From the NCBI GenBank assembly GCA_020912385.1, contig CP087208.1:3391364-3455363 (forward strand): 64,000 bases of DNA. Direction: 5' to 3'. A program made the translations under genes and the position numbers. The notes beneath the pieces are model-generated. The model had not been told where the DNA came from, searched no databases, and worked only from the letters and a program-made list of their open reading frames with translations. This stretch comes from Neofusicoccum parvum (lineage: Eukaryota > Ascomycota > Dothideomycetes > Botryosphaeriales > Botryosphaeriaceae). Shown piece by piece: positions 17,719-64,000 of this stretch (position 1 is its first letter; every line of letters starts with the position of its first letter).

Positions 17719-18090
17719 CATATATCTTAGGATACCTTCGAGCCTTTTGGTTAGGATACCTTCGAGCCTTTTGGTTAGGATTTGCACCTTTTGGTTAGGG
17801 TTGGCGTTGGTGAGGTACGACAGCACCCGCTATATAATCACTGATCAAAGCTGAGTTGAGAAGTATTTTAAGACGGCTGTTATGTCTCCATAGAGGAAGG
17901 ATAACTGAGTCCGAATGCATCCATTACGTGACCCTAATGCTATATTGCTAGAAGTACAGAGACACATTATTACTTACCCTCTTCAACTATTTCTGCCAAG
18001 AAGTTATTCGAAATCGGCCTTTGAGTGTACATGCAACAACTGAAGAGTGAAATTTTCTCTTGCACAAAATCTCCCTGCTGGTGCATTTAT
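17719..18090. other. Spacer downstream of the P450 gene
   Basis: Contains the AGGATACC tandem repeat (17726-17800) and AT-rich sequence up to the P450 stop codon. No gene seen. Confidence 0.5.
17726..17800 (+). repeat. AGGATACC / TTTTGGTTAGG tandem repeat
   Basis: Two perfect 24-base units (aggataccttcgagcctttt + ggtt), then a shortened third ending in 'ttttggttagggttgg'. A mutated inverse relative lies at 35710-35753, also directly beside the 3' end of a LINE. Units contain the telomere-like string GGTTAGG. Confidence 0.75.
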
Positions 18091-36571: not shown

Positions 36572-36722
36572 CTAACCCAAAGTTTGATTGATTGATTGAT
36601 TCTGTCAGGCTACGATACATTCTAGGTAGTATAAGAGCCGTCCCTCTCTTTAGCCTTACATTATCCTGTTCTTTAGCCTCTTCTCACTTCTTAGTCCAAT
36701 CTGTTTACTTCCTTCGCTGCCA

Positions 36723-39700: not shown

Positions 39701-40649
39701 ATGGTTTAGCCCGTGGTGTTCTTGCCTCTACTGCCTCCTGCACTATCCGAACAAGTTGGTCTGCTTCTTTCTCCAGGGTCTCCTTGTCTTTAATCCTTAC
39801 TGGTGGAAGGAGGGTAGAGAGGAGGTCTCTATTTACCTGATCCCAGTTGGTTTTCCGAAAAAGTAGCCGTCCCTTCTTCTCTTCCGCCCGTGTGACTGAT
39901 AGGTCAAAGCAGGTCTCAATTGCGCGGTGGTCGGAGCCATGGTCGGTTTGGTGTGTCCTGCAGAACTCTTGCCTTTCTGCTAGGAACTCGGATGCAAGTA
40001 TAAGGTCGATGGTGGACCTTACTCTTCCATTTTGATGCTCCCAGGTGATTGTGCCTGGCCGGAGCAAGGACTGCAGCCCTCGCTTCTGTATGAGCCTGAT
40101 CACCTCACTTGCTTCTCCCTGGCGTGCCTCATGAGCAACTGCATCTCCTCCCCAGAGCTGGTCATGTCGGTTCAGGTCTCCTGCAATGATAGTCTCTAGC
40201 TCTTTTCCTTCCTGCTGTTCCGTTTCTTGTATGGCCTGGTCAATGAGTCTAACTCTCTCTGCAAGAGTACTAGCATCATTATAGACCGCTCTACCTTCCC
40301 TGGGTACATATGCTGAGAACAAAAGTATTGGCTTTCCTCCTGCCTGTAGTAGGACTGCTGCAATATCTGGCGATTCCACTGGTACTACCTGAGCTTTGAT
40401 CCGGTTATTTACCCAGATCATTGCTCGGAATCTGTGCCGTATGTGCCCTTCTCTGTGTGCTGTTGGGGTCACGGCCTCCCACTGGTGGTGGAAGTTGACC
40501 CTTGGTTTGTCGTCTTCTCCTCTGTACAAGTACGGCTCTGATACTACCAACACGTCGAACTGGGCCGTTTCCAGGTTGTTGAGGAGGCTCTGTTGAACCT
40601 CCATTCTCTTTCCGACGTTTAGCTGGAGGATCCGGAGGCCCTCTAACAT
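36723..40649 (-). CDS. LINE4 ORF2: endonuclease-RT-RNase H (intact)
   Basis: 1308 codons without interruption. AP endonuclease (about 1-240: 'LRILQLNVGK', 'IIAGDLNRHDQLWGG', 'HGSDHRAIE'), linker, reverse transcriptase (about 480-770: 'KAYRPISLLATISKGLE', 'FDVQGAYNGV', 'VPQGSPLSPILYILY', 'GFVDDYTAWV' with the catalytic DD near 695), RNase H (about 985-1120: 'TVYVDGAVREG', 'ATELLAILAGLENL', 'FLVTDSQKALKAI', 'IWVPAHSGVKGNEAADRAA') and terminal zinc motif 'CECGMSQETIKHVLLEC'. It makes the nick and copies element RNA into the target site. The start ATG overlaps the ORF1 stop in ATGTTAG (40649-40643), arguing for termination-reinitiation. Potentially active if a full 5' end exists elsewhere. Confidence 0.95.
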   Translation of the reverse strand: MLEGLRILQLNVGKRMEVQQSLLNNLETAQFDVLVVSEPYLYRGEDDKPRVNFHHQWEAVTPTAHREGHIRHRFRAMIWVNNRIKAQVVPVESPDIAAVLLQAGGKPILLFSAYVPREGRAVYNDASTLAERVRLIDQAIQETEQQEGKELETIIAGDLNRHDQLWGGDAVAHEARQGEASEVIRLIQKRGLQSLLRPGTITWEHQNGRVRSTIDLILASEFLAERQEFCRTHQTDHGSDHRAIETCFDLSVTRAEEKKGRLLFRKTNWDQVNRDLLSTLLPPVRIKDKETLEKEADQLVRIVQEAVEARTPRAKPSPYAKRWWTDKLTTLRQSVSTLRNHYTALRRQRNEQEVDLRLVAEKLATARALYLQEIKAQKRAHWREFLDDPTNVWKANSFTRVESSTGKIPTLVKDDRTATTEEEKASLLLDTFFPKQPEPEEQTDPQRQKQLKVPPIEKPEVERAIMLANPDKAPGTDELPARVWKEIWQVAGDHITNLYEASLRLGHLPAKWRTAKIIPLRKPGRDYTMPKAYRPISLLATISKGLETVVARRVSYLAEEHQLLPKNHFGARRKRSCEQALNILVEKIYEAWRGQRVLSLVTFDVQGAYNGVSKEVLLQRLRERRLPENIVRWVDSFCSERKGCVMVNGHCSPLQDIEHPGVPQGSPLSPILYILYNAGLVEGPINKEQGTLGFVDDYTAWVTGPCVSTNVKTLQEKFIPKVEGWARKSGVTFEAEKTKLIHFTRNPIKDDVPTQALTFQSQEIQPSDTVKILGVLLDKKMQMKDHMARATTKAMKQCLAIKRLKGVRPRAMRQLFITTVVPITDYAASCWYGPGRLGTSKLLGMLERIQRLGAQVITRAFKTVALPVLEAEAGLCSVESRLKRKVGKHLVGLLSLPEANPAARCVKALRSQGGRWQSPLQHTWNEFTELARPEKAPQMEIILPWSRPPWAALAGTRIQIEEKEQAKRKVQQLPQSSTVYVDGAVREGMCSIGVVRMVNTHQPVTVLQETVARAKSFSVLATELLAILAGLENLVTERKGRRNVFLVTDSQKALKAIQTDTQTEGQYILQDIYKVLDKIVARGVTPWLIWVPAHSGVKGNEAADRAAKRAVKPGQRPDRDSQDRRRLVKTVTQAVLVRVQEEEKENAKQRKRYGRYTWELDGAAPGKHTINLYNRLDSEQAAVLIQCRSNHCRLKPYLHRIGREESDECECGMSQETIKHVLLECPQWRDPRRELVVAAGERWGDVSFLLGGWSGWEDRHTGKPVDGPKEKWKPNYTVVKAAIQFLQRTGRFRDEHGEAYTSNPPQEM

Positions 40650-42102
40650 GTGGTAGTGGTGCTAGCTTCCCCCATTTCAACATCACCCGTTGCCAGCGTC
40701 CCTGCTGGCTGGGAGGTTACCGGCTTTTCTGTGGGCTTGGTTGCTAGCTTCTCTGTAGGCTTGGGTACCGGCTTCCCTGCAGGCTTGGTTGCCGGCTTCT
40801 CGGATACCGGCTTCCCAGCTGGCGTGTTTGCCGACTTTCCTGTTAGCCTTGCAGCTGTTCTAACGCCTGGTCTTGTGTGCCTTGGGTGAAGTGGGCACCC
40901 TCTATCAAAGATAGTGTGTGCGTCGCCGCAGGCTGGACACCTTGGACTGTCCCTCTTGTTGCAGTTGCGTGTGTCGTGTCCACTAGAACAGATTCCACAC
41001 CGGATGCTCCCAGTGCATCTGCTTTGCTTGTGGCCGTATTTGTTGCATCTGAAGCATGGCCTTTGGTCCTCTCTCTCCTTGAACATGGTGCAGTAGGCTG
41101 CAGAGGCCCCAAACCGTACTGAGCCTTGGGTGAGGAGGTACTGAGCCGCCTCCTTCTTTGCCAGCCAGATGACCAGCGATCCAGTTGCCTTTCCCACCTC
41201 AGTTTTACTGAGCCACGCAGCTTTCCTTGCTGCGCAGTTAACCTTACCATCCCCATTCTCCTTTTGGAAGTTGCTAAGAACCTCCTCTTTGATGGATCTA
41301 TCCCTAGTGGTGGTCCAGTTTAGAACCATGTGTTTGGACACTCCATCACACTTGATTGGGTACCAGGTCTCTCCTCTCGTCCTAGCTCCTGGCAATGTAC
41401 TCTGCAGCCAGCGGGGGTGTTGGCGCGCCTTCTGGGCCTCGGCCTCAGAGCTAAAGACCAGGTCAATGGCGCCCTCTCCATGAGGCCGGATGAATTCAAT
41501 AGAAACTTCCTTAGTAACCTCGTAGCTATCCAGGCCCTCGTCCAGAGCTGCTTTAACCTTATTTAGGTCGCTTCTCTCGCCTTTAGCTCTTGTAATGTCC
41601 ACTGTCACCGTTCTGGGTTCCTCATTCGCTTTTGCTTTTGCTGCTCCCTGGAGTGGCAGCTTAGGGCTTGCTGCTACTGGTGCTGCTCCAAGGACCGCGC
41701 TATATGTTGGCTTTATCTGGCTGGGAGGCTTAGCCAGCCTTGCCTTGATTTCCCCGGCTTCGCGAGAGAAGCGGGCTTGTTCATTTTTCGTTGCTTTTAT
41801 CTCCTGGGATAGCTCCTTGACTGCAGCTGTGAGAGTTGCCATAGCCTTCTGTTGGTCCTTGATCTGCTCACCCTGAGCGCTGATCATGTCCTCTTGTCTC
41901 TGAAGCATTTCTAGCTGGCTCTTAACTAGGCGCTGGAGCTGCTCTGCCTTCTGACGCAAAATTTGCGTGTCTTCTTTGTTGGCGCCTGTCTTGCTTGAAA
42001 AGGCCGTAGGCGCTCCAATAGCTACCTCAATGGTATCCTCTGTCCTTGCTCTTTTACTTCCCTGCCTTGCTGGTAGCTTACGCCTCTCCTTTACCGCCTT
42101 TT
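40643..42102 (-). CDS. LINE4 ORF1 (Gag-like), 5' end missing
   Basis: The frame is open from the right junction at 42102 to TAG 40643-40645, about 486 codons. The first ATG inside it (41957-41959) begins in the middle of a coiled coil, so the real start is probably beyond the junction and lost. In order: basic segment; coiled coil ('LVKSQLEMLQRQEDMISAQ'); central domain with 'TVDITRAKGERSDLNKVK'; three knuckles 'CFRCNKYGHKQSRC', 'CGICSSGHDTRNC' and 'CPACGDAHTIFDRGC'; then a Lys/Pro/Thr tail of short repeats (KPVSEKPATKPAGKP type). It binds element RNA and chaperones reverse transcription. Confidence 0.9.
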
Positions 42103-42118
42103 CCTAACCGAAAGACGC

Positions 42119-42144
42119 AAATCCAGCGCGACCGCGCTGGATTT
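42119..42144. repeat. Perfect hairpin at TLH module start
   Basis: AAATCCAGCGCG, a two-base AC loop, and CGCGCTGGATTT: 12-bp perfect arms, 9 bases inside the CCTAACC start. An identical copy is at 54818-54843. Confidence 0.95.
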
Positions 42145-42513
42145 AGATTGTGTGGGAAAGAATCGTCGGGTGGGCTGGACGCGCACCGCACTGGATTTAC
42201 CGCACTGGATTTGGAGCGAGGTGCTCGGATCGAGTCTACACTCGGTCAGATTTCCAAGCGTGGCTCTGCGACCACTTTTTATATGAGCCACCTTAAAATC
42301 CGACCGCTGCGTCGTGAGAAAACCAGCCACTTGGGGTAAGAGTAGGGTTAGGGTTGAGGTTTTTTGATGGGGTAAGGGTGATCCGTGCGGCGGCGGCGGC
42401 AGCAGCGGCGGTAGCAGTAGTAGTAGCAGCAGCATTTACGAGCTTTCTCACACCAGCATCATTCTCTCTAGCAACTTTCAGTATTAGCAAGACAATACTA
42501 GCTAGCGCACCAA
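42145..42513 (+). promoter_or_regulatory. TLH leader: TATA, repeated sites, telomere tract
   Basis: ACCGCACTGGATTT occurs twice in direct tandem (42185-42198, 42199-42212); its core CTGGATTT is the same as the hairpin arm. A TATA-like 'tttttatatgag' lies at 42275-42286. An interstitial telomeric tract TAGGGTTAGGGTT lies at 42343-42355, then CGG/CAG/TAG triplet runs (42388-42433) before the ATG at 42514, which has a good context (CACCAAATGG). The promoter assignment is inference from position. Nearly the same sequence is in module 2. Confidence 0.5.
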
Positions 42514-42784
42514 ATGGCGACAGCGTACTTTTATCACCAGGCGGAATACCGGCTCGCGATCTGCAGGGAGTGCCGGCACGCCGTCTGGCCGGACCAGGTG
42601 GAAGGCCATCTGCGGGGGAAACACCACCGGATGGGCCGGAAGCAGGCGGAGCTGGTCGGTGGTGAGGTTAGAAGCTGGCATGGCTTGATTGCATTCTCGA
42701 GCGAGCTGGAAGTGCCAGCCCGGGTGCAACGGCCCGTCACAGAGCTGCCACTGTTCAAGGACGGGCTGCTGTGCCAGAAGGACC

Positions 42785-42830
<46 letters not shown>

Positions 42831-45800
42831 CAGTAATAGTAGCAGCTGCCAGTACGTCTGCAGGAATGAAAGGATGATGAAAGAGCACTGGCGCACCGAG
42901 CACGGATGGTCGATTGGAGGAGGCAAAGGCCGGCAGAGCAGGATGGTGGAAGAGGGGTTGAATAAGAGGTTCCAAGAGGCGGTAAAGCAGGTCTACTGCC
43001 AGCGCTTCTTCCCCACCTTCCACGGCTCGCAGTACTTTGAAGTGTGCCAGCCAGAGGAGCAAGCGCAGCAGGAGGACCAGGCGCAGCCCGCCCAGGAGGG
43101 AGGGGAGAGAGGGGAGGGAGGAGGGGAGCAGCTGTGGCAGCAGGCGTGGAACAAGGCGAACCAGAACTGGGAGGAGCTGGAGAAGCGGGCCCGGGCCACC
43201 ATCGAGGAAGGAGAGAAGGACGAGGTCAGCCCGTGGCTGGACAGGACGCAGTGGCTGCCGTATCTGGCGCGGCTGGACCGCGACGATCTGCTAGCGTCGG
43301 TTGAGGAGCCCAACGCCAACCCGGACAGGCCAGAGGAGGAGGAGGAGCCGGCGGCAGCGGCCATCTGGAAAGCCATGGACGAGGTTGCGCGCATCGGCCA
43401 GCAGGCGGTGACCCAGCAGGTCGGCATATTCATCCGCATGGAGCTGATGAGGACGGAGAAGCACCAGAACCGGTACCACCCGCTGCAGCCGTACATGGAG
43501 GAAAACGCGGTCGCGGACAGGTCGAGGGCGTGGAAGCAGGTGCTGATGTTCTTCGTCAGGACGCAGCAGGAGCATGACTGGAGAAGCCCAGAGTACAGGT
43601 TCACCCGCAGGCAGTCCAGGGCATTCACCAGGCTGATGGAGGAGGCAGAGCAAGCTGTAAAGAAGCAAGAAGAAGGGAAAGGGGGAGGAAGAGATAAAGA
43701 AGAAAGCGAGGAAGAAGAGGGAGGAAGAAGTGATGGTGATGATGATGATGATAATGAAGAAGAAGAAGGAGCTGGTTTAGAAGAGCAGCAGCAGCAGCAG
43801 CTGCCACCAAAGCTGTCCGGGATCCAGAAGGCGTGCTTGGACTTTTGCATTGAACTGCTGAACCAGAGGATCACGCAGCGCGAGTACGACAGCGCTCTGG
43901 TCTGCGCTCTGGCGGTGCAGGGGGTCACGCCCACCGGCTGGAGGGAGCCGGGTCTGTACACGGCGATTCTGTCGGCCATCATCAAGGTGGGGCGCTTCAT
44001 GGTGGTGCAGAAGGCGCTGGAGATGGCGGGTCCAGCAGCAGCAGCAGCAGCAGCAGCAGAAGGGGAGGAGGATGGTAGGGAGGAGTTTAGCAGTGGGGGC
44101 AGCGCATGGGACTTTGAGAAGGAGGAGGAGGAGGAGGAGGAGGAGGAGGAGGAGGAGGAGGAGGAGGACGGCGCTGGCGGTTATGGTGGAGGCGATGCTG
44201 GCGGCAGCAGCAGTAGCAGCAGCAGTAGCAGCCAGGGCGGCAGGAGCAGCAGCAGCCAGGGCGGCAGGAGCAGCGCCGGCCAGGGCAGCGCCGGCCAGGG
44301 CAGCGCCGGCCAGAGCAGCAGTGGCCAGGACAGCAGCAGGAACAGCGGCCAGGGCAGCGCCAGGGACAGCAGTGGGCGCAGCGGGCGCAGCCAGGGCGGC
44401 AGGAGCAGTAGCAGCCAGGGCAGCGCCGGCCAGAGCAGCAGTGGCCAGGACAGCAGTGGCCAGGATAGCGCCAGCAGCAGGACCAGCAGCGGCCAGGGCA
44501 GCAGCAGGAACAGCGGCCAGGGCAGCGCCAGGGACAGCAGTGGGCGCAGCCAGCGCAGCCAGCGCAGCCAGCGCAGCCAGCGCAGCCAGCGCAGCCAGAT
44601 GAAGATGAGCTGCTTAGAGCTGGTGACCAAGATGATGGACAGCTTCATGATCCGAGGCAGCCACAGTCCCATGCAGTGGATACTGGATCTGCGCACTTAC
44701 GGGATGAAGATCCACTACAACACCACCACCAAGGGCCATGTGGGATGGAATGGGCGGGAGCAGCTGCTGTACCAGGGCATCCAGTTCACCATGGCCAAGT
44801 TCAGGGGCATGGTGCACGGCTTGCTGAACGACACTCGCCAGCTGCTGCTCCAGGAGCTGCTGTTTGGCGGCTACAGCAGCCACAAGAAAGAGCATAGGGA
44901 AATGGACGTGCCAGCAGTGCCGTGGCATTCCATCAGGGACAACCCAGCTGAGGAGCGCAGAGGGTGGAGCTTTCTGCAGGACCAGCGCACCAGGCTGCCA
45001 GCAGACGGGAACACTTGGTTGTTCAACAGGATCATGGGAATCACTGCTGCGAGGAAGAGGTTCACCAGGGAAAACGCGAGCTCAGGTATCAGCAGGCAGG
45101 CGGTAGATGCATATGCAGCGCAGGTGGCCGAGTTTAGGGAGAAGCTGCTACTGCTGATGCACATTACCGGTGGACAGCCGGCAAGAGGGCCGGAGATTCT
45201 CAGCATCAGGCATAGCAATACGGCCAAGGGAGGGCACCGCAACATCTTCGTGGAGGATGGGCTGGTTGTGTTCGTCACGCGCTACCACAAGGGCTACGCC
45301 ATGTCCGGGGATGTCAAGGTGATCCACAGGTATCTGCCCAGGGAGGTGGGCGAGCTGGTGGTGTGGTATCTATGGCTAGTCTTGCCATTCCACCAGCGCA
45401 TGCTGGCAGCAGTACGTGGGAGCGAGCAGATCTCAGCCCACATGTGGCCGGCGGAGGCGGGGGAGAAGAGGTGGACGACGGAGCGCATGAGGGAGGCGAT
45501 GAAGAAGGAGAGCAGGATCGGCTTAGGCCAGGAGCTGACGGTCAGGGCGTACAGGGACGTCGCTATCGGCATCAGCAGGCGGTTCATGCGCGGCTCCAGC
45601 GCGTTCAGGGTAGACGAGGAGGGGGGAGAGAATGGGAATGAGCAGGAGCAGCAGCAGATGGAGGTGGGAGAAGACCGGGCAGCAGCAGCCATTGCAGACG
45701 CCCAGGCAGGACATACTTCCCACACTGCAGGCTTGATCTACGCGCGTGGGATGATGGAGCAGGCAGGTGTGGTGGCGGAGAAGAGGCTGCTGTTCCGTGC

Positions 45801-48204
45801 TTCCAGTACCGACTGGCACCGCTTCTTGGGCTTCCAGTCGGCATTTAAAAGCCAGGAACCGGCTGCTTCCAGGAAGAGGAAGCGCTGCCCGTTTGAGGAT
45901 GACGCTGACGAGGAGCGGCTGGACCGCTGGGCAAGGCTGAAGAGGGCCAACGTGAAGGAGCAGCTGCAAAGATTGATGGGAAAGGAAGCCGAGTTCCGCA
46001 GCATCCAGGAAGAGGCGGTGACCGCCATCCAGGCTGGAGTGAGCCCGGTGGTGGCAGTGATGCCGACTGGGGCTGGGAAAAGCATCTTGTTCATGCTGCC
46101 GGCTTGGACGGAGCCAGGAGGAACAACGGTGGTGGTGGTACCGCTCATCGCGCTGCGAGCGGACATGAAAGAGCGCTGCAGCAAGCTGGGCATCAGCTGT
46201 GCAGAATGGGAGGCGAGGCGGCCACCAGACGCGGAGTCCATCGTGCTGGTCACGCCAGAGGCAGCACTGAGCGACGAGTTCATGACGTTTTTGAACCGGC
46301 TCAGGGCGATGAGGCAGCTGGACAGGATCATCATCGACGAGTGCCACGTGGTGCTGAACGACCAGGTGGACTTCCGCAAGCAGCTGCAGCAGCTGGGGAA
46401 GCTCATGGCGGCAGAAACGCAGATGGTTCTGCTCACAGCGACGCTGCCACCCAGCAAAGAGGCGGAGCTGTGGCGCAGGATGGGCTGGACTGCGGCCGAG
46501 GTGGTGGTGTTCAGGGCGGTCACCACCCGCAGAAACATCAGCTACCAGGTGGTGGGGGTGGAGTTGGAGGTGGAGGTGGAGAATGGAGGAGGGAGAGGAG
46601 GGAGAGGAGGGAGAGGAGGGAGAGGAGGGAGAGGAGGGAGAGGAGGGGGAGGAGGGAGAGGGGGAGGATGGCGAGGAAGACAAGGAGGGAAGGAGGCGCA
46701 GAATAGGAAAATAGAAGAGATGGTGGAAGAGGAACTACAGGCAACGGTGGAAGGAAAGGTGGTCATCTACTGCAACACAGTGACCAGGGTGAAGAGCTTG
46801 GTGGACGCAGGGCTGTTCCAGTGCGAGGCATTTTACAGCAAGATGTCAGAAGCTAGGAAGAAGGAGGTGCTAGAGGACTTCAAGGCGGGAGTGGTGCGTG
46901 TAGTGGTGGCCACCAGCGCGCTGGGCATGGGGATTGACATTCCAGGCATCAGGCTCATCATCCACACGGATGAGCCGCGGGATTTTCTGGACTACGCGCA
47001 GGAGAGCGGCAGGGCGGGAAGGGATGGACTGGCCAGCAGAGCAGTGATGGTTCAGGGGGGGGAGAAGAGCGATGACCGGCTGGTAAGGCAGTATCTGGAT
47101 GGGGGACTGTGTAGGAGAACGGTGATGGACGAGTTTTTAGATGGTAGTTTTAGGCGGATAGAATGCAGGCAGGAGGAGGGGGAAGAAAAGTGTGATTTTT
47201 GTAGAAGGAGCAGGGAGTCTAGGCGAGAGATCACGGATGATGATAATGATGATAATAATGAGGAGGAGGAGGTAGAGGAGGTAGATGAGGTGGAAGAGGT
47301 AGATGAGGTGGAAGAGGTAGACAGGGAGGTAGAGGAAGAACAGAGGGTAGACCAGTACCAGCAGCGGCAGCAGGGGCAGCAGTGGAGGGAGCAGCAGCAA
47401 AGAGAGCAGCAGCAGAGGATGCGGCAGCAGGAAAATCAGCAGCAAAGAGAGCAGCAGCAGAGGATACGACAGCAGCAAAGAGAGAAGCAGCAGGAAAATC
47501 AGCGGGAAAGTCGGCAGGAAAGTCGGCAGGAAAGACAGCAGGAGGAAGAGCAGAGTGCGCAACAAAGAGAATTAGATAGGCAGGAGTTTCAAAGGCAGCA
47601 GCAGCAGCAGGTAGGAATAAGGGTAAGGCAGGCCAGGCAGACACAACAGGTGTATGCGGATGCAGAACTGCTTCAGAGAAAGCTGCAGAGGTGGAAGGGG
47701 GTGTGTTTGGTGTGCAAGGCAGCGGGCAGGGAAGACCAGCACAGTGTTAGCCACTGTCCAACAGAGCGGGGTAGGCAGGCGGATGGGGAGAGGCGCGAGA
47801 TGCAGGGAAGAATCAGGTTTGAGAGGTACTCGGGCTGCTTTCGCTGCGGGGTACCACAGGCAATCTGCAACAGGTGGGAGAGTAATGGTAGGCAGGGGTG
47901 GCGGCAGGTTCATGGCAGCGAGTGCCAGTTCTTCGGGGTGATGATTGGTATATTATACGGGATCAAGCACGGGTATAAGACGGTGTGGAAGAGGTGGTTA
48001 TTACGGCTAGGAGAGGAAGTAGTAGGAGCGGGAGTAGCGGCGGCGGCGGTAGAGGATAGAGATGAAGATAAAGATAGACTGCTAGGATATCTTAGACAGG
48101 TATGGAGGAAGGACGAGCTCGAGAGTAATAACTTGGCTCGGGAGTTTTTATGGCTGATAGGAAGGGTGGAGAGCTTAATAGAGGAGAGAGGAGTAGGGAG
48201 ATAA
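42514..48204 (+). CDS. TLH: Telomere-linked RecQ helicase with OrsD-like finger and YR-like domain
   Basis: An intact 1896-codon ORF. N-terminus: CRECRHAVWPDQ...H-x4-H (C17, C20, H32, H37) and a second finger C112-x3-C...H125-x4-H130, then 'CQRFFPTFHGSQYF' (about 160-175), all OrsD/DUF3505-like. Acidic tracts and a Ser/Gly/Gln repeat (about 550-690) follow. Residues about 875-1080 resemble a tyrosine recombinase: 'TGGQPARGPEIL' (R891), 'YHKG' (K926), 'RAYR' (R1014), 'GHTSHTAGLIYAR' (H1067, Y1076). RecQ-type helicase: 'MPTGAGKS' (1183-1190), DECH (1275-1278), 'TATLPPS' (about 1307), 'ATSALGMGIDIPG', 'QESGRAGRDG' (1496-1505). A Gly/Arg-rich stretch (about 1355-1390) splits the two helicase lobes. 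A Gln-rich region and a C-terminal zinc cluster (C1731, C1734, H1747, C1748; C1775, C1778, C1785) end the protein. Known TLH proteins are encoded next to fungal telomeres; unwinding or recombination of chromosome ends is the inferred role. Confidence 0.9.
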
Positions 48205-49080
48205 TAAAGCTAATAGATAGATAGGGCTAGCTAGTAGGTAGAGCTAGTAAGATGGAACTAATAGAGGAGTAATAGTTGAAAAGAGTGGGAATAAACAAGA
48301 AAGATAGATTTTTAGGAATAATAATAACTGGATGTACTATATGAGTAGAATTAAATGGAATTGAATACAGATATAAAGTGATATATAAAAGAGGTGAAAG
48401 ATGGATTTAAAAGAACTAGAACTAGAATTAAAGCTAGGACTAGAATTAAAACTAGAGTTGAAACTAGAGGTAGAACTAGAATTAAAACTTGAATTAAAAC
48501 TAGAAGTAGAAGTAGAATTAGAAGAACTAGAAGAACTAGAAGAACTAGAAGAACTAGAAGAACTAGAAGAACTAGAAGAACTAGAAGAACTAGAAGAACT
48601 AGAAGAACTAGAAGAACTAGAAGAATTAAAAAAAACAAAAAAAAAAAAATAAAAAAAACTAGAAGGACTAGAAGAAGTAGAACTAGAATTAAAAGAACTA
48701 GAAGAACTAAAAGAATTAAAAAAGAATTAGAAGGACTAAAACTAAAACTAGAATTAGAAATTAAGACTAGAACTAGAGGTAGAACTAAAGGAACTAGAAG
48801 AACTAGAAGAATTAAAAAAGAAAAAAAAAAAAAAAAAAAAAAAACTAGAAGGAACTAGAAGAAGTAGAACTAGAATTAGAAGAACTAGAACTAAAACTAG
48901 AATTAGAAACTAAGACTAGAACTAGAACTAGAACTAGAACTAGAACTAGAACTAGAACTAGAACTAGAACTAGAGTTAAAACTAGAGGTAGAACTAAAAC
49001 TAGAACTAAAAGAACTAGAAGAAGAATAATAGATTTAAAAGTAGAGAGTAATAATTTAATATAGGAGTTTTTAACAGTTA
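48205..49080 (+). repeat. Purine-rich (GAACTAGAA) satellite after TLH
   Basis: From about 48400 to 49030 the plus strand is almost only A, G and the triplet CTA: long runs of GAACTAGAA/AGAACT and homopolymer A tracts. A 252-base open frame of Leu-Glu repeats (48401-48652) is a by-product. Copied virtually unchanged at 61049-61680, and in diverged form at 63418-63690. Confidence 0.9.
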
Positions 49081-49207
49081 GTAAGAGTAGGGTGAGGGAT
49101 AGTAATTTTAAGTAGGATGAGGGTTAGCAATTTTAAGTAGGGTAAGGGTTAGTAATTTTGAGTAGGGTGAGGGTTAGTAATTTTGAGTAGAGTGAGGGTG
49201 ATGTATA
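49081..49207 (+). repeat. Telomere-adjacent repeat, block 1 (internal)
   Basis: Four to five units of about 26-30 bases, 'gagggttagtaattttgagta' followed by 'gggt'. The same unit directly precedes the true telomere at 63795-63886 and ends module 2 at 61728-61858. Its presence here suggests this point was once next to a chromosome end. Confidence 0.85.
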
Positions 49208-49391
49208 TGTTAGAGTCTAGAGCCTCGAGAGAAGCCTCAGAGGATCATCGGCAGGTCATGTGATGCCAAGAACTCCTTGTATTTAAGTCGTTCTCTTCTT
49301 CTTTCTACTTCTTCTTCTCTCCTTAAGTCTTAGCTTAACGTACATAGCGCAATAAACCTTTCAGTGATCATCCTGAGGTTGAGCCCTGACA
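49208..49391 (+). mobile_element. Gypsy 5' LTR
   Basis: TGTTAGAGTC...GCCCTGACA, 184 bases with TG/CA ends. It contains 'tgtatttaag' (TATA-like, about 49278) and AATAAA (about 49351). Boundaries are inferred from ends and from where module 1 stops; there is no second LTR to compare. Confidence 0.65.
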
Positions 49392-49444
49392 ATAGCTAAG
49401 ACTTCAAACCCATTGGACTCACTGGACATCGGATCATTGGTACA

Positions 49445-49530
49445 GTCGCGCACTGGAATCACTGGAATCACTGGAATCACTGGAATCACTGGAATCACTG
49501 GAATCACTGGAACTACTGGAATCACTGGAG
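49445..49530 (+). repeat. 9-bp tandem repeat in Gypsy leader
   Basis: About nine units of AATCACTGG (one AACTACTGG) between the LTR and the gag ATG at 49549, in the region where packaging and primer-binding signals normally sit. Confidence 0.9.
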
Positions 49531-49548
49531 ACAACGGGATCAACGACA

Positions 49549-54533: not shown

Positions 54534-54801
54534 GAACTCTAGTACTAAAATTAGACTGGTAGGTAACTGAACGAGAACTGGCAGTGAGCAAAAGACAAGC
54601 GGTTTGGCCCGGCCGAAGCCGAGCCCGATCCAGGTGACATTGATCCTTCCTGTCACCAGGCAGCGAACTGCGAGACAACAGTACTAGGTCACCTGGTCGG
54701 GCATTACAGACCACTGGACGGAATCCGCCAGTGCCGGAGAACCCTCTTCCTGTCAACAGACAGGCCCTCAATTCGACAGCCAGTCGACAAGCCTGTAACA
54801 G
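54534..54801. other. Gypsy 3' flank, truncated
   Basis: Non-coding sequence downstream of pol, up to the CCTAACC start of module 2. No polypurine tract followed by TGTTAG (the LTR start) is seen, so the break lies upstream of the 3' LTR. Confidence 0.7.
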
Positions 54802-54817
54802 CCTAACCGAAAGACGC

Positions 54818-54843
54818 AAATCCAGCGCGACCGCGCTGGATTT
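54818..54843. repeat. Perfect hairpin at TLH module 2 start
   Basis: Identical to 42119-42144 (12-bp arms, AC loop). Confidence 0.95.
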
Positions 54844-55221
54844 AGATTGTGTGGGAAAGAATCGTCGGGTGGGCTGGACGCGCACCGCACTGGATTTACC
54901 GCACTGGATTTGGAGCGAGGTGCTCGGATCGAGTCTACACTCGGTCAGATTTCCAAGCGTGGCTCTGCGACCACTTTTTATATGAGCCACCTTAAAATCC
55001 GACCGCTGCGTCGTGAGAAAACCAGCCACTTGGGGTAAGAGTAGGGTTAGGGTTGAGGTTTTTTGATGGGGTAAGGGTGATCCGTGCGGCGGCGGCGGCA
55101 GCAGCGTAGCAGCAGTAGTAGTAGTAGTAGTAGTAGCATTTACGAGCTTTCTTACACCAGCACTATTCTCTCTCCAGCAACTTTCAGCATCGGCCAGGCA
55201 AAATACTAACTAGCGCACCAA

Positions 55222-58200
55222 ATGGCGACAGCTTACTTTCATCACCAGGCGGAATACCGGCTCGTGATCTGCAGGGAGTGCCGGCACGCGGTCTGGCCGG
55301 ACCAGGTGGAAGGCCACTTGCAGGGGAAACACCACCGGATGGGCCGGAAGCAGGCGGAACTCATCAGCGGCGAGGTCAGCGGAGGATGGCACGGCTTGAT
55401 CATGTTTCCCAGCGAGCTAGAGGTGCCGGCCCGGGTGGAGCGGCCCGTCGCCGAGCTCCCACTGTTCGAAGATGGACTGCTGTGCCAGAAGGACCCCGGC
55501 AACTGCCGGTATATCTGCAGGGACACCAAGGGGGATAAGATGACGATGAAGAAGCACTAGCGCGTCGAGCATGGATGGTCAGTTGGAGGGGGAAGCAGAG
55601 GCCGGCTGAGTAGGAGGACTGAAGAAGGGTTGGACAAGAGGCTTCAAGAAGCGGTGAAACAGGTCCGCTGCCAGCGCTTCTTCCCCACCTTCCACGGCTC
55701 GCAGTACTTTGAAGTGTGCCAGCCAGAAGAAGCGCAGGAAGAGCGGGAAGAGCAGGAAGAGCAGGTAGACCCAGGCCAGCAGGGCGGAGAGCAGCTGTGG
55801 CAGCAGGCGTGGAACAAGGCGAACCGGAACTGGGAGGAGCTGGAGAAGCGGGCGCGGGCCACCATCGAGGACGGGGAGAAGGACGAGGTCAGCCCGTGGC
55901 TGGACAGGACGCAGTGGCTGCCGTATCTGGCGCGGCTGGACCGCGACGATCTGCTAGCGTCGGTTGAGGAGCCCAACGCCAACCCGGACAGGCCAGAGGA
56001 GGAGGAGGAGCCGGTGGCGGCGGCCATCTGGAAAGCCATGGACGACGTTGCGCGCATCGGCCAGCAGGCGGTAACCCAGCAGGTCGGCATATTCATCCGC
56101 ATGGAGCTGATGAGGACGGAGAAGCACCAGAACCGGTACCACCCGCTGCAGCCGTACATGGAGGAAAACGCGGTCGCGGACAGGTCGAGGGCGTGGAAGC
56201 AGGTGCTGATGTTCTTCGTCAGGACGCAGCAGCAGCGGCAGCAGCAGCAGGGGCAGCAGCAGGAAGAGCATGACTGGAGAAGGCCAGAGTACAGGTTCAC
56301 CCGCAGGCAGTCCAGGGCGTTCACTAGGCTGATGGAGGAGGCGGAGCAAGCTGCAAAGCAAGAAGAAGGGGGAGGAAGAGATGAAGGAAGCGAGGAAGAA
56401 GAGGGAGGAAGAAGTGATAATGATGATAATGAAGAAGAAGGAGCTGATTCAGAAGAGCAGCAGCAGCAGCAGCTGCCACCAAAGCTGTCCGGGATCCAGA
56501 AGGCGTGCTTGGACTTTTGCATTGAACTGCTGAACCAGAGGATCACGCAGCGCGAGTACGACAGCGCTCTGGTCTGCGCTCTGGCGGTGCAGGGGGTCAC
56601 GCCCACCGGCTGGAGGGAGCCGGGTCTGTACACTGCGATTCTGTCGGCCATCATCAAGGTGGGGCGCTTCATGGTGGTGCAGAAGGCGCTGGAGATGGTG
56701 GGTCCAGCAGCAGCAGCAGCAGCAGCAGAAGGGGAGGAGGATGGTGGGGAGGAGTTCAGCAGTGGGGGCAGCGCATGGGACTTTGAGGAGGAGGAGGAGG
56801 AGGAGGAGGAGGAGGAGGAGGAGGAGGAGGAGGAGGAGGAGGAGGAGGAGGACGGCGCTGGCGGTTATGGTGGAGGCGATGCTGGCAGCAGCAGTAGCAG
56901 CAGCCGCAGCCAGGGCGGCAGGAGCAGCAGCAGCAGCCAGGGCAGCAGGAGCAGCGCCGGCCAGGGCAGCGCCGGCCAGGGCAGCGCCGGCCAGAGCAGC
57001 AGTGGCCAGGACAGCAGCAGGAACAGCGGCCAGGGCAGCGCCAGGGACAGCAGTGGGCGCAGCGGGCGCAGCCAGGGCGGCAGGAGCAGCAGCAGCCAGA
57101 GCAGCGCCGGCCAGAGCAGCAGTGGCCAGGACAGCGCCAGCAGCAGGACCAGCAGCGGCCAGGGCAGCAGCAGGAACAGCGGCCAGGGCAGCGCCAGGGA
57201 CAGCAGTGGGCGCAGCAAGCGCAGCCAGCGCAGCCAGCGCAGCCAGCGCAGCCAGATGAAGATGAGCTGCTTGGAGCTGGTGACCAAGATGATGGACAGC
57301 TTCATGATCCGAGGCAGCCACAGTCCCATGCAGTGGATACTGGATCTGCGCACTTATGGGATGAAGATCCACTACAACACCACCACCAAGGGCCATGTGG
57401 GATGGAATGGGCGGGAGCAGCTGCTGTACCAGGGCATCCAGTTCACCATGGCCAAGTTCAGGGGCATGGTGCACGGCTTGCTGAACGACAGTCGCCAGCT
57501 GCTGCTCCAGGAGCTGCTGTTTGGCGGCCACAGCAGCCACAAGAAAGAGCATGGGGAAATGGACGTGCCAGCAGTGCCGTGGCATTCCATCAGGGACAAC
57601 CCAGCCGAGGAGCGCAGAGGGTGGAGCTTTCTGCGGGACCAGCGCACCAGGCTGCTAGCAGACGGGAACACTTGGCTGTTCAACAGGATCATAGGAATCA
57701 CTGCTGTAAGGAAGAGGTTCACCAGGAAAAACACGAGCTCAGGCATCAGCAGGCAGGCGGTGGATGCATATGCAGCGCAGGTGGCCGAGTTTAGGGAGAA
57801 GCTGCTGCTGCTGATGCACATCACCGGTGGGCAGCCGGCGAGAGGGCCGGAGATTCTCAGCATCAGGCACAGCAACACGGCCAAGGGAGGGCACCGCAAC
57901 ATCTTCGTGGAGGACGGGCTAGTCGTGTTCGTCACGCGCTACCACAAGGGCTACGCCATGTCCGGGGATGTCAAGGTGATCCACAGGTATCTGCCCAGGG
58001 AGGTGGGGGAGCTGGTGGTGTGGTATCTGTGGCTAGTCTTGCCATTCCACCAGCGCATGCTGGCAGCGGTGCGAGGTGGGAGCCAGCAGATCTCGGCCCA
58101 CATGTGGCCGGCGGAGGCGGGGGAGAAGAGGTGGACGACGGAGCGCATGAGGGAGGCGATGAAGAAGGAGAGCAGGATCGGCTTAGGCCAGGAGCTGACG

Positions 58201-60852
58201 GTCAGAGCGTACAGGGACGTCGCCATCGGCATCAGCAGGCGGTTCATGCGCGGCTCCAGCGCGTTCAGGGTAGATGAGGAGGGGGGAGGAGAGAATGGGA
58301 ATGAGCAGGAGCAGCAGCAGCAGATGGAGGTGGAGGGAGAAGACCGGGCAGCAGCAGCCATTGCAGACGCCTAGGCAGGACACACATCCCACACCGCGGG
58401 CTTGATCTACGCGCGTGGGATGATGGAGCAGGCGGGCGTGGTGGCGGAGAAGAGGCTGCTGTTCCGCGCTTCCAGCACCGACTAGCACCGCTTCTTAGGC
58501 TTCTAGTCGGCATTTAAAAGCCAGGAACCGGCTTCTAGGAAGAGAAAGCGCTGCCCGTTTGAGGACGACGCGGACGAGGAGCGGCTAGACCGCTGGGCGA
58601 GGCTGAAGAGGGCCAACGCGAAGGAGCAGCTGCAAAGGTTGATGGGAAAGAAAGCCGAGTTCCGCAGCGTCTAGGAAGAGGCAGTGACCGCCATCTAGGC
58701 TGGAGTGAGCCCGGTGGTGGCAGTGATGCCAACCGGAGCTGGGAAAAGCATCTTGTTCATGCTGCCAGCTTGGACGGAGCCAGGAGGAACGACGGTAGTG
58801 GTAGTACCACTCATCGCGCTGCGAGCGGACATGAAAGAGCGCTGCAGCAAGCTGGGCATTAGCTGTGCAGAATAGGAGGCGAGGCGGCCACCAGACGCGG
58901 AGTCCATCGTGCTGGTCACGCCAGAGGCAGCACTGAGCGACGAGTTCATGACGTTTTTAAACCGGCTCAGGGCGATGAGGCAGCTGGACAGGATCATCAT
59001 CGACGAGTGCCACGTGGTGCTGAACGACCAGGTGGACTTCCGTAAGCAGCTGCAGCAGCTGGGGAAGCTTATGGCGGCAGAAACGCAGATGGTTCTGCTC
59101 ACAGCAACGCTACCACCCAGCAAAGAGGCTGAGCTGTGGCGCAGGATGGGCTGGACTGCGGCCGAGGTGGTGGTGTTCAGGGCGGTTACTACCCGCAGAA
59201 ACATCAGCTACCAGGTGGTGGGGGTGGAGTTGGAGGTGGAGGTGGAGAATGGAGGAGGGAGAGGAGGGAGAGGAGGGAGAGGAGGGGGAGGAGGGGGAGG
59301 AGGGAGAGGGGGAGGATGGCGAGGAAGACAAGGAGGGAAGGAGGCGCAGAATAGGAAAATAGAAGAGATGGTGGAAGAGGAACTACAGGCAACGGTAGAA
59401 GGAAAGGTGGTCATCTACTGCAACACAGTGACCAGGGTGAAGAGCTTGGTGGACGCAGGGCTGTTCCAGTGCGAGGCATTTTACAGCAAGATATCAGAAG
59501 CTAGGAAGAAGGAGGTGCTAGAGGACTTCAAGGCGGGAGTGGTGCGTGTAGTGGTGGCCACCAGCGCGCTGGGCATGGGGATTGACATTCCAGGCATCAG
59601 GCTCATCATCCACACGGATGAGCCGCGGGATTTTCTGGACTACGCGCAGGAGAGCGGCAGGGCGGGAAGGGATGGACTGGCCAGCAGAGCAGTGATGGTT
59701 CAGGGGGGGGAGAAGAGCGATGACCGGCTGGTAAGGCAGTATCTAGATGGGGGACTGTGTAGGAGAACGGTGATGGACGAGTTTTTAGATGGTAGTTTTA
59801 GGCGGATAGAATGCAGGCAGGAGGAGGGGGAAGAAAAGTGTGATTTTTGTAGAAGGAGCAGGGAGTCTAGGCGAGAGATCACGGATGATGATAATAATGA
59901 TAATAATGAGGAGGAGGAGGTAGAGGAGGTAGATGAGGTGGAAGAGGTAGATGAGGTGGAAGAGGTAGACAGGGAGGTAGAGGAAGAACAGAGGGTAGAC
60001 CAGTACCAGCAGCGGCAGCAGGGGCAGCAGTGGAGGGAGCAGCAGCAAAGAGAGCAGCAGTAGAGGATGCGGCAGCAGGAAAATCAGCAGCAAAGAGAGC
60101 AGCAGCAGAGGATACGACAGCAGCAAAGAGAGAAGCAGCAGGAAAATCAGCGGGAAAGTCGGCAGGAAAGTCAGCAGGAAAGACAGCAGGAGGAAGAGCA
60201 GAATGCGCAACAAAGAGAATCAGACAGGCAGGAGTTTTAAAGGCAGCAGCAGCAGCAGGTAGGAATAAGGGCAAGGCAGGCCAGGCAGACACAACAGGTG
60301 TATGCAGATGCAGAACTACTTCAGAGAAAGCTGCAGAGGTGGAAGGGGGTATGTTTAGTATGTAAGGCAGCAGGTAGGGAAGACCAGCACAGCGTCAGCC
60401 ACTGTCCAACAGAGCGGGGTAGGCAGGCGGATGGGGAGAGGCGCGAGATGCAGGGAAGAATCAGGTTTGAGAGGTACTCGGGCTGCTTTCGCTGCGGGGT
60501 ACCACAGGCAATCTGCAATAGATGGGAGAGTAATGGTAGGCAGGGGTGGCGGTAGGTTCAGGGCAGCGAGTACCAGTTCTTCGGGGTGATAATTGGTATA
60601 TTATACGGGATCAAGCACGGGTATAAGACGGTGTGGAAGAGGTGGTTATTACGGCTAGGAGAGGAAGTAGTAGGAGCGGGAGTAGCGGCGGCGGCGGTAG
60701 AGGATAGAGATGAAGATAAAGATAGACTGCTAGGATATCTTAGACAGGTATGGAGGAAGGACGAGCTCGAGAGTAATAACTTGGCTCGGGAGTTTTTATG
60801 GCTGATAGGAAGGGTGGAGAGCTTAATAGAGGAGAGAGGAGTAGGGAGATAA
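55222..60852 (+). pseudogene. TLH: TLH copy 2: RecQ helicase gene with ten stops
   Basis: Same architecture as the intact copy and a single continuous frame, with stops at 55558, 58372, 58483, 58504, 58672, 58696, 58873, 60061, 60238 and 60553. Compared with copy 1, seven are Gln codons (CAG or CAA to TAG or TAA) and three are Trp (TGG to TAG). Every one is a C-to-T change at CpA on one strand or the other. The longest open piece is 55630-58374 (914 codons), ending just before the recombinase-like His/Tyr box. The helicase core is open again at 58909-60063 but starts after the Walker A motif. Not functional as a full protein. Confidence 0.9.
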
Positions 60853-61727
60853 TAAAGCTAATAGATAGATAGGGCTAGCTAGTAGGTAGAGCTAGTAAGA
60901 TGGAACTAATAGAGGAGTAATAGTTGAAAAGAGTGGGAATAAACAAGAAAGATAGATTTTTAGGAATAATAATAACTGGATGTACTATATGAGTAGAATT
61001 AAATGGAATTGAATACAGATATAAAGTGATATATAAAAGAGGTGAAAGATGGATTTAAAAGAACTAGAACTAGAATTAAAGCTAGGACTAGAATTAAAAC
61101 TAGAGTTGAAACTAGAGGTAGAACTAGAATTAAAACTTGAATTAAAACTAGAAGTAGAAGTAGAATTAGAAGAACTAGAAGAACTAGAAGAACTAGAAGA
61201 ACTAGAAGAACTAGAAGAACTAGAAGAACTAGAAGAACTAGAAGAACTAGAAGAACTAGAAGAACTAGAAGAATTAAAAAAAACAAAAAAAAAAAAATAA
61301 AAAAAAACTAGAAGGACTAGAAGAAGTAGAACTAGAATTAAAAGAACTAGAAGAACTAAAAGAATTAAAAAAGAATTAGAAGGACTAAAACTAAAACTAG
61401 AATTAGAAATTAAGACTAGAACTAGAGGTAGAACTAAAGGAACTAGAAGAACTAGAAGAATTAAAAAAGAAAAAAAAAAAAAAAAAAAAAAAAAACTAGA
61501 AGGAACTAGAAGAAGTAGAACTAGAATTAGAAGAACTAGAACTAAAACTAGAATTAGAAACTAAGACTAGAACTAGAACTAGAACTAGAACTAGAACTAG
61601 AACTAGAACTAGAACTAGAACTAGAGTTAAAACTAGAGGTAGAACTAAAACTAGAACTAAAAGAACTAGAAGAAGAATAATAGATTTAAAAGTAGAGAGT
61701 AATAATTTAATATAGGAGTTTTTAACA
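60853..61727 (+). repeat. Purine-rich satellite after TLH copy 2
   Basis: A base-for-base counterpart of 48205-49080, with only a few changes in A-tract length and arrangement. Confidence 0.9.
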
Positions 61728-61858
61728 GTTAGTAAGAGTAGGGTGAGGGATAGTAATTTTGAGTAGGATGAGGGTTAGCAATTTTAAGTAGGGTAAGGGT
61801 TAGTAATTTTGAGTAGGGTGAGGGTTAGTAATTTTGAGTAGAGTGAGGGTGATGTATA
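61728..61858 (+). repeat. Telomere-adjacent repeat, block 2 (internal)
   Basis: The same units as 49081-49207. Here the sequence passes directly into the third TLH fragment instead of a retroelement. Confidence 0.85.
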
Positions 61859-62175
61859 TAGTGGTAGTGGTGGTAGTGGCGGTGGCAGCAGTGGCGGCAG
61901 CAGCGGCAGCAGCAGTAGTAGTAGTAGCCAGGATAGTAGTAGGACTAGCAGCAGCTTAGGGCAACGATGGTAGTAGTAGCAGCTAGGATAGCAGCAGGAC
62001 TAGTAGTAGAGGAAGCACTAGCAGCAGTAATAGCAAAGGGAGTAGGAGAGGATGTAGCAGAGGGAGCAGCAGCAACTACAGTAGGAAAGGGAGTAGGAGA
62101 GGACGTAGTAGAGGGAGTAGCAGAGGGAGCAGTAGAGGGAGCACCAGTAGCAGTAGCAGCAGAGGGAGCACTACT

Positions 62176-62207
<32 letters not shown>

Positions 62208-63113
62208 AGGGAGCAGCAGCAGCAGCAAAGAGAGCAGGAGAGGACGCAGCAAAGGGAGTAGTAAAGAAAGCAGTAGTGGCAGTAGGAGCAGTAGCAGCAA
62301 AGAGAGCAGTAAAGAAAGCAGCAGTAGTAGTAGGAGCAGTAGTAAAGAGAGCAGCAGAGGACGTAGTAAGAAGAGCAGTAGAGAATACAGCAGGAAAATC
62401 AGCAGGAAAGTCGGCAGGGAAGTTGGAAGGAAGAGCAGAGTACGTAATAAAGAGAATTAGACAGGTAGGAGTTTCGAAGGCAGCAGCAGCAGCAGCAGGT
62501 AGGAATAAGGGTAAGGCAGGCCAGGCAGACATAATAGGTGTATACAGATGCAGAACTGCTTCAGAGAAAGCTGCAGAGGTGGAAGAGGGTGTGTTTAGTG
62601 TGCAAGGCAGCGGGTAGGGAAGACCAGCACAGTGTTAGCCACTGTCCAACAGAGCGGGGTAGGCAGGCAGATGGGGAGAGGCGCGAGATGCAGGGAAGAA
62701 TCAGGTTTGAGAGGTACTCGGGCTGCTTTCGCTGCGGGGTACCACAGGCAATCTGCAACAGGTGGGAGAGTAATGGTAGGCAGGGGTGGCGGCAGGTTCA
62801 GGGCAGCGAGTGCCAGTTCTTCGGGGTGATGATTGGTACGTTGTACGGGATCAAGCACGGGTATCAAAGGGTGTGGAAGAGGTGGTTGTTACGGCTAGGA
62901 GAGAAGGAAGTAGTAGGAGGAGTGGTAGCGGCGGCAGTGGCGGCAGCGGTAGAGGATGGAGATGGAGATGGAGATGGAGATGGAGATGAAGATAAAGATA
63001 GACTACTAGGATATCTTGGACAGGCATGGAGGAAGGACGAGCTTGAGAGCAATAACTTGGCTCGAGAGTTTTTATGGCTGACAGGAAGGGTGGAGAGCTT
63101 AATAGAGGAGTAG
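61859..63113 (+). pseudogene. TLH: TLH copy 3: C-terminal remnant
   Basis: 61859-62400 is a triplet-rich stretch (GTAGCA/AGCAGT runs) that reads as Ser, Ala or Val repeats depending on frame. From about 62390 the sequence matches the TLH Gln-rich region with stops (TAA, TAG at former CAA, CAG), and 62538-63113 is open for 191 codons with the C-terminal zinc cluster ('CLVCKAAGREDQHSVSHC', 'CFRCGVPQAIC', 'GSECQFFGVMIGTLYGIKHGY') plus a short Asp/Gly repeat (GDGDGDGD). The finger, recombinase-like and helicase domains are all absent. A deletion joined the Ser-rich region to the Gln-rich tail, or this is an independent truncated capture. Confidence 0.8.
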
Positions 63114-63794
63114 GAAGAGGGGTAGGAAAGTAATAGAGCTAATGGAAATAGATGGATAGGACTAGCTAGTAGGTAGAGAGAGCTAGTAAAATTTTAGAAC
63201 TAATAGAGAAAGAAGTAATAGTTGAAAAAGAGTAGGTAGAAATAAATAAGAAAGATGGATTTAAAAAGAATAAATGAATAAATAAATAAACAAATAAATA
63301 AATAGTAAGTACCAGTTTATTTTAGAAATAATAATAGCTGGATAAGTATTACTATATAAATAGAATTGAGTGGAATTAAATACGAATATTAAGTAATATA
63401 TATAGAAGAGGTAAAAGATGGATTTTAAAAAAAAAACTAGAACTAGAACTAGAACTAGAACTAGAATTAAAGCTAGAACTAGAATTAAAACTAGAGTTAA
63501 AACTAGAGTTAAAACCAGAAGTAGAAGTAGAAGTAGAAGTAGAAGTAGAAGTAGAAGTAGAAGTAGAAATAAAATTAGAAGAACTAGAAGAACTAGAAGA
63601 ACTAGAAAGAAGTAGAAGTAACTAGAATTAAAAGTTAGAACTAGAAATAGAAGTAGAATTTTAGAAGAACTAGAAGAACTAGAACTAAATAAAGGAAGGT
63701 AGAAGAAGAAGAAGAAGAAGAGTATAAAAGAGAAGAAATTAAATAGAAAGAAAGTAAAAGATATAATAGAAATAGAGGTAGTAAAAGTAGAATA
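63114..63794 (+). repeat. Diverged purine-rich satellite after TLH copy 3
   Basis: Same organisation as after copies 1 and 2 (short A/T-rich spacer, then ACTAGA/AGTAGA repeats at 63418-63700), but shorter and with different unit order, so this copy did not take part in the recent homogenisation of the other two. Confidence 0.8.
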
Positions 63795-63886
63795 AGAGTT
63801 GATAATTTTAGACTAGGGTGAGGGTTAGTAATTTTAGATTAGGGTGAGGGTTAGTAATTTTAGATTAGGGTGAGGGTTAGTAATTT
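63795..63886 (+). repeat. Telomere-adjacent repeat, terminal block
   Basis: Three units of about 26-27 bases, 'tagattagggtgagggttag' followed by 'taatttt', directly left of the telomere. Confidence 0.9.
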
Positions 63887-63924
<38 letters not shown>

Positions 63925-64000
63925 GGTTAGGGTTAGGGTTAGGGTTAGGGTTAGGGTTAGGGTTAGGGTTAGGGTTAGGGGTTAGGGGTTAGGGTTAGGG
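63887..64000 (+). repeat. Telomere (TTAGGG)n
   Basis: About 18-19 TTAGGG units run off the right edge. Variants: one TTTAGGG near 63901 and two TTAGGGG near 63980. G-strand on the plus strand, so the chromosome ends to the right. Confidence 0.98.

Follow-up and report, generated by a model that had tools for sequence, protein, structure and literature searches.

A tyrosine-recombinase-like domain in a telomere-linked helicase of Neofusicoccum parvum and its possible part in moving chromosome tips

Fungal telomere-linked helicases (TLHs) have long been known and are mostly taken as host telomere genes of unclear use. A subtelomeric stretch of Neofusicoccum parvum raises the question of whether such a gene may belong to something that moves. 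This stretch (64,000 nucleotides of contig CP087208.1, hereafter the window) carries an intact TLH gene in which a first-pass annotation proposed a fused tyrosine recombinase and, with it, an integrating element related to Cryptons or Starship captains. The analysis described here covers the genome from which the window was taken (44 Mb, 18 contigs). On balance, it leads us to regard the TLH as part of a mobile chromosome tip, whose joining to CCT sites is probably the work of its own tyrosine-recombinase-like enzyme. Mobility of the TLH-bearing tip is strongly supported by sequence comparison, and catalysis by the recombinase-like domain is what we infer.

A recombinase-like domain in the TLH protein

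The TLH open reading frame has no internal stop (Table 1), and its RecQ-type helicase core, adjoining telomeres, marks the product as a TLH. Conserved residues and a predicted fold give good support to a tyrosine-recombinase-like domain lying between OrsD and the helicase, and so back the proposed fusion. A protein search of the genome scored 25 TLH copies among more candidates, with protein identities of 97-100%. Five of these (L001-L005, including unit A, the inner of the two main units in the window) are without internal stops. Copies L006-L025 carry TAG or TAA stops resembling repeat-induced point mutation (RIP), or are near-identical variants. tblastn alone proved misleading for L048, from which it recovered a partial TLH, the DNA being approximately 94% alike to unit A.

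The proposed active-site residues lie where the annotation had placed them. The motifs start at residues 885, 920, 1008 and 1065 with a DNA span that agrees, and R891, E894, K926, R1014, H1067 and Y1076 are all present, the His and Tyr being nine residues apart. Arg, Lys, Arg, His/Trp and Tyr thus occur in the order and with the box-III spacing of the tyrosine recombinase superfamily. A homologue search with residues 690-1120 found 319 proteins, of which the 120 listed were used together with the query (121 sequences). Among those listed, the named homologues are fungal except for P0047, a plant record, and many contain OrsD. Neofusicoccum parvum proteins match at 90-96% and cover 49-93% of the domain, in keeping with an origin of the window in that genus. 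Variation of R891, H1067 or Y1076 among homologues would have spoken against the annotation; all three are conserved (Table 1), as is E894 (121/121). The departure that it had pointed out, Arg in place of the first His of box II, is also real: position 1011 holds Ala in 72 sequences, Gln in 37, Pro in five and His in only three, so the departure is family-wide. In tyrosine recombinases this first His of HxxR is usual, not universal.

By itself this conservation carries modest weight, since the region is well conserved throughout. In the alignment of the recombinase-like region, conservation reaches ≥97.5% in 76 of 456 columns, and five random residues of the same types within 860-1110 would all be equally conserved approximately 1.2% of the time. 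It is the predicted fold and a second protein family that, added to conservation, carry the likeness beyond chance. The AlphaFold2 model has strands at model residues 228-236 and 245-251, with K926 at 237. Foldseek and VIA-align matched its core to the recombinase type, where the annotation would have been contradicted by the lack of any fold match. For two separate models, VIA-align rows above noise come almost exclusively from the tyrosine recombinase superfamily, a fold that topoisomerases share. The catalytic-domain fold is thus seen in predicted models only, with low confidence at the His/Tyr end: model residues 346-396, with pLDDT (predicted local distance difference test) below 50, comprise the low-complexity stretch between R1014 and H1067 and also cover H1067 (model 378) and Y1076 (model 387).

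The second family was found through P0114, in which the domain occurs once more in a distant form. With this copy as query, 89 proteins including itself were found, most of which bear OrsD and have no helicase in the same protein; one member, P0291, has DEAD and Helicase_C domains. The profile of this family matches the first at 22% identity (probability 100, E 7.7e-50). The R, K, R, H and Y positions are in register and are kept in 89, 86, 86, 85 and 85 of the 89 members, respectively. Since the five residues are kept across both families, the active-site set appears to be old and maintained. P0110 and P0114 are single predicted proteins with two recombinase-like domains each; they may represent tandem or nested elements that were merged into one gene prediction.

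Searches in other directions returned little. The TLH protein (P0001), its isolated domain and 13 homologues gave no match to PF00589 or PF11917 (DUF3435) at E≤10, a negative limited by HMMER filters, which remove most matches above 0.1. Among the VIA-align rows listed, which compare structures and no Crypton profile, there is one weak QRICH1 fold row and no captain or Crypton recombinase structure. A search of viral contigs for TLH relatives gave 26 pattern matches, none confirmed.

The inner end of the unit and its joining sites

The inner end of the TLH unit is base-exact, CCT^AACCGAAAG, and the unit extends from there to the telomere. In a DNA alignment of the scored copies, homology begins at, or a few bases from, window position 42103. 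The terminal 12-mer CCTAACCGAAAG has 84 exact copies in the genome, versus seven for the reversed pattern; 79 copies are found no more than 50 kb from a contig end, and 78 of these read towards the telomere. When the 5′ 411 bp were searched for in the genome DNA, at least 44 TLH heads were found, all pointing outward. Heads occur at 34 of the 36 contig ends; the right ends of C16 and C17 have none among the matches listed. From the outermost head to the contig end the distance is 9.18-9.43 kb in 26 cases, 9.76 kb in two and 11.3-11.4 kb in six, and a 20-bp marker located 2.1-4.3 kb from the end was found at 32 of the 36 ends. Heads and markers together therefore imply that nearly every chromosome ends in one telomere-capped block.

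Behind the 12-mer of unit A, a 12-bp motif occurs four times. Its first two copies make up a 12+12 bp palindrome, a degree of symmetry that none of 2000 letter shuffles reached, and the remaining two are direct copies. Three head subfamilies carry different variants (CGC[GA]CTGGATTT, CGCACAGC.. and CGCGGTCGATTT), the four copies changing together. Motif identity is 9.6/12 within a set, a value lowered by one set-2 copy that is one base out of register, and 6.6/12 between sets. Such joint change between subfamilies is what would be expected of sites bound by a single protein. When head types 1 and 3 are compared, the OrsD region ranks with the parts that diverge most. L052 was considered as a fourth TLH head and rejected, since it has the 12-mer followed by a LINE-like ATTG tail (LINE, long interspersed nuclear element). 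In three composite tips (L007, L017 and L021), a 132-bp subfamily-2 head precedes another complete head, joined at the same CCTAA site; the three flanks differ, as would be the case had the composite moved as a unit.

The sites to which heads are joined follow a simple rule. The 43 head junctions read have 38 distinct upstream 30-mers, and CCT is kept in 40. Of 52 distinct flanks, 11 were set aside (satellite context or LINE duplication) and 41 examined; an unoccupied counterpart at ≥27/30 identity was found for 25 junctions. Some of these may share an ancestral event, so a binomial probability computed from them is not to be read literally. At the join, the unoccupied sites read CCT in 18 cases, TCT in two, CCC in two and CGT, TTC and TCC in one each, while at 39 neighbouring offsets CCT occurs 0-3 times (mean 0.7). 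Several exceptions have a possible explanation. L015 fits as TCT, the target's T being retained in the filled site, and exchange there therefore followed YCT. The flanks of L039 and L012 (both CCC) have RIP-like changes missing from the reference copies, and a one-base slip would make L019 (TTC) fit. A junction shared by C17 and C2 without CCT overlap is better explained as a LINE target duplication in a TLH head than as a tip junction; it is still counted among the 43 junctions and is left out of the 25 sites.

Both main units of the window can be compared with unoccupied targets. For unit A, LINE copies elsewhere read TTTT followed by CCTCTCC. Position 49208 is not the 3′ end of the unit: unit A is cut there by an LTR (long terminal repeat) element, and 23 of the 24 remaining scored copies extend beyond it, L012 being cut before that point, at 48494. 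For unit B, four other copies of the retroelement read CAG followed by CCTATCAACTG where the window reads CAG followed by CCTAACCGAAAG. Those copies reach an LTR approximately 230 bp beyond the site, whereas the window has the LTR once, at 49208; the 3′ part of the retroelement is missing at the join, and nothing distal to the target is left. Newer heads cut older units in the same manner at L009 (at 42290) and at L015 (inside an older TLH coding region). The suggestion that the module integrates is supported, in a form that had not been foreseen: a telomere-capped tip of which only one end is joined, mostly at CCT.

Table 1. Features of the window, with coordinates counted from its first nucleotide
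Feature	Position	Strand	Remarks
Subtelomeric LINE	36584-42102	-	endonuclease, reverse transcriptase and RNase H domains
TLH unit A	42103..49207	+	inner side joined to LINE; outer side cut by LTR retroelement
Inner terminus of TLH unit A	42103..42114	+	CCTAACCGAAAG; join at CCT^AACC, after 42105
Four copies of 12-bp motif	42119..42212	.	42119-42130 (-), 42133-42144 (+), 42187-42198 (+), 42201-42212 (+); palindrome 42119-42144
TLH protein	42514..48204	+	1896 aa; OrsD, recombinase-like domain, DEAD/Helicase_C
OrsD domain (PF12013)	42529..42906	+	residues 6-131; E 8.1e-18
Tyrosine-recombinase-like region, modelled	44581..45948	+	residues 690-1145; AlphaFold2 model and VIA-align
Catalytic part of recombinase-like region	45091-45843	+	residues ~860-1110
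R891, proposed catalytic Arg I	45184..45186	+	121/121
K926, Lys in turn after predicted beta strand	45289..45291	+	121/121
R1014, proposed catalytic Arg II	45553..45555	+	121/121
H1067, proposed box-III His	45712..45714	+	118/121 (2 Y, 1 gap); low-confidence model part
Y1076, proposed nucleophile	45739..45741	+	120/121 (1 gap); low-confidence model part
DEAD helicase domain	46000..46458	+	residues 1163-1315
Helicase_C domain	46717..47028	+	residues 1402-1505
Ty3-type retroelement	49208-54801		gag, protease, reverse transcriptase, RNase H, integrase, chromodomain; one LTR only
Terminal TLH unit B, tail and telomere	54802..64000	+	TLH frame broken; joined inside retroelement between CAG and CCT
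Truncated TLH C-terminal copy and tail	62270..63864	+	outer part of terminal unit
TTAGGG telomere	63865..64000	+	

A putative amidoligase gene (PF12224) also lies in the subtelomere, at 26252-27628 on the minus strand.

A proposed mechanism and its rivals

The mobile block would be approximately 9.2 kb long at most ends, starting with CCTAACCGAAAG and finishing in the telomere. The TLH recombinase would recognize the head of its own unit while another part of the protein, perhaps OrsD, would hold the four co-changing motifs. Were it to exchange strands between CT^AA and a CCT on a different arm, this would amount to a Cre-type single crossover between two linear chromosomes, swapping their tips. 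As one crossover swaps the ends of linear molecules, it would be enough to move a telomere-capped tip. The helicase may open the DNA, or may help one-sided copying of the new tip as far as the telomere. Either the reciprocal product is lost or the step may itself be one-sided copying. The idea that such tips form a new class of mobile element, which replaces arm ends via CCT with its own recombinase-helicase and caps nearly all of them, falls slightly short of an even chance in our estimate. If true, the proposal explains the place and number of TLHs and the uniform chromosome ends, and offers both a site-specific mechanism for subtelomere turnover and an enzyme with a 3-bp target. The head and CCT rule makes the idea testable in long-read assemblies of fungi with TLHs.

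A number of observations weigh against this proposal. Recombinase activity and recent tip movement are both putative, and the evidence comes from one genome. Foldseek E-values are weak (0.89 and 0.01). H1067, Y1076 and their counterparts in the second model lie in or beside stretches with pLDDT below 50, and many VIA-align rows end near Arg II (model residue 320), so the fold gives firmer backing to the core than to the His/Tyr end. All but three of the 121 sequences lack the first His of box II. Neither the TLH nor the isolated domain matches a recombinase in Pfam, and a sequence-profile search of the PDB returned helicases and two chance-level rows, no recombinase. Among unoccupied sites, seven of 25 lack CCT, and L042, L024 and L044 do not fit the rule. 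The palindrome is off-centre relative to the exchange point, and unit B has a type 1 head but an OrsD region resembling that of head type 3, a mismatch for the idea of OrsD as the motif reader. One pattern search of the genome did not find the reciprocal product of unit B. Lastly, the subtelomeric LINE appears to use the same 12-mer as its target, and the 12-mer stands at the LINE inner end.

This LINE is at the centre of the main rival, in which a telomere-directed LINE does the work and the TLH is cargo. All 26 LINE matches in the genome lie within approximately 80 kb of contig ends in a single antisense orientation. Full-length LINEs at C17, C2, C10 and C18 are flanked on both sides by CCTAACC[G/C]AAAG (C17 and C2, whose flanks are shared, represent a single event). 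As the two flanks carry matching G or C variants, the LINE appears to insert at this sequence with 12-bp duplications, TLH heads and satellites being its target; among the 26 LINE ends read, the 12-mer is partial or absent in eight (L057, L065-L071). A 24-bp satellite, TTAGGATACCTTCGAGCCTTTTGG, is present at 17727-17781, and several TLH heads at other ends are bordered by related arrays that contain CCTAACC. In one version of this rival, reverse transcriptase would extend a broken ...CCT-3′ end on an antisense tip RNA ending ...GGTTAGG-3′. In another, the endonuclease would free tips at the 12-mer with a 12-nt 3′ overhang, which end-joining would pair to CCT ends. CCT/AGG pairing is consistent with the junction overlap, and the LINE-bearing junctions read CCT (L054, L020) or CCC (L012). 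However, reverse transcription predicts many distally truncated tips, whereas all 34 outermost heads lie at least 9.18 kb from the end, 26 of them within 9.18-9.43 kb, and the distal marker is common to 32 ends. End-joining should often trim the head, yet CCT is kept in 40 of 43 junctions, and neither version explains the co-changing motifs or the conserved recombinase residues. We consider LINE-driven movement unlikely, although it deserves serious weight.

Alternatively, host repair (break-induced replication or telomere capture) could spread the tips, with the recombinase-like domain serving as a DNA-binding or topoisomerase-like part that has another job. TLHs are called host genes in one report (PMC12857005) and are named simply as subtelomeric genes in two others (PMC8381367; PMC7473861). 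The near identity of the 25 scored copies is what ongoing exchange between ends would give, and topoisomerases share the fold. Homology-driven copying should not, however, start at one base on 38 distinct flanks, nor would it be expected to choose CCT in 18 of 25 targets. This explanation is a shade less probable again than the LINE. It is very improbable that a helical domain came to resemble a recombinase by chance convergence, given that two separate models return almost solely this superfamily above noise and that two families with 22% identity keep the proposed catalytic positions in register.

Comparison with known systems

Known fungal TLH or tlh genes are likewise subtelomeric and telomere-adjacent with a RecQ-type helicase core. 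In the accessible parts of the literature, PMC7473861 presents them as helicase genes and gives no further domain, PMC12857005 treats them as host genes that lie near FoTeR retrotransposons and PMC8381367 merely names them, with no mention of the recombinase domain that is predicted here. The literature searched, with all bioRxiv preprints and most subscription journals out of reach, contained no link between TLHs and recombinases. Compared to Xer/Cre-type tyrosine recombinases, the TLH has a similar predicted core fold and the R-K-R-H-Y set, but it lacks the box-II His and a sequence-profile match, contains a low-complexity insert before the H/Y box and is fused to a helicase and OrsD.

Starships are also fungal mobile DNA with a tyrosine recombinase. 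They are defined by DUF3435 captains and insert with their cargo by cut-and-paste (PMC12134995). The TLH differs by its lack of a PF11917 match and its one-ended, telomeric tip, and the copies examined are not two-sided insertions flanked by direct repeats. Two-sided insertion, a trait of Cryptons as well, is likewise replaced by one-ended joining in these copies, and the TLH is further set apart from Cryptons by its helicase fusion and terminal position. The kinship with Cryptons or captains raised at the outset thus finds no backing in matches to PF00589 or PF11917 or in the mode of insertion.

Protelomerases such as TelA and TelK produce hairpin ends, whereas TLH units end in TTAGGG telomeres. 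The MoTeR and FoTeR telomeric retrotransposons are, like the proposed tips, mobile DNA of chromosome ends. In contrast to these elements, which reverse-transcribe, the TLH had no reverse transcriptase domain in a Pfam domain search, and its gene points towards the telomere.
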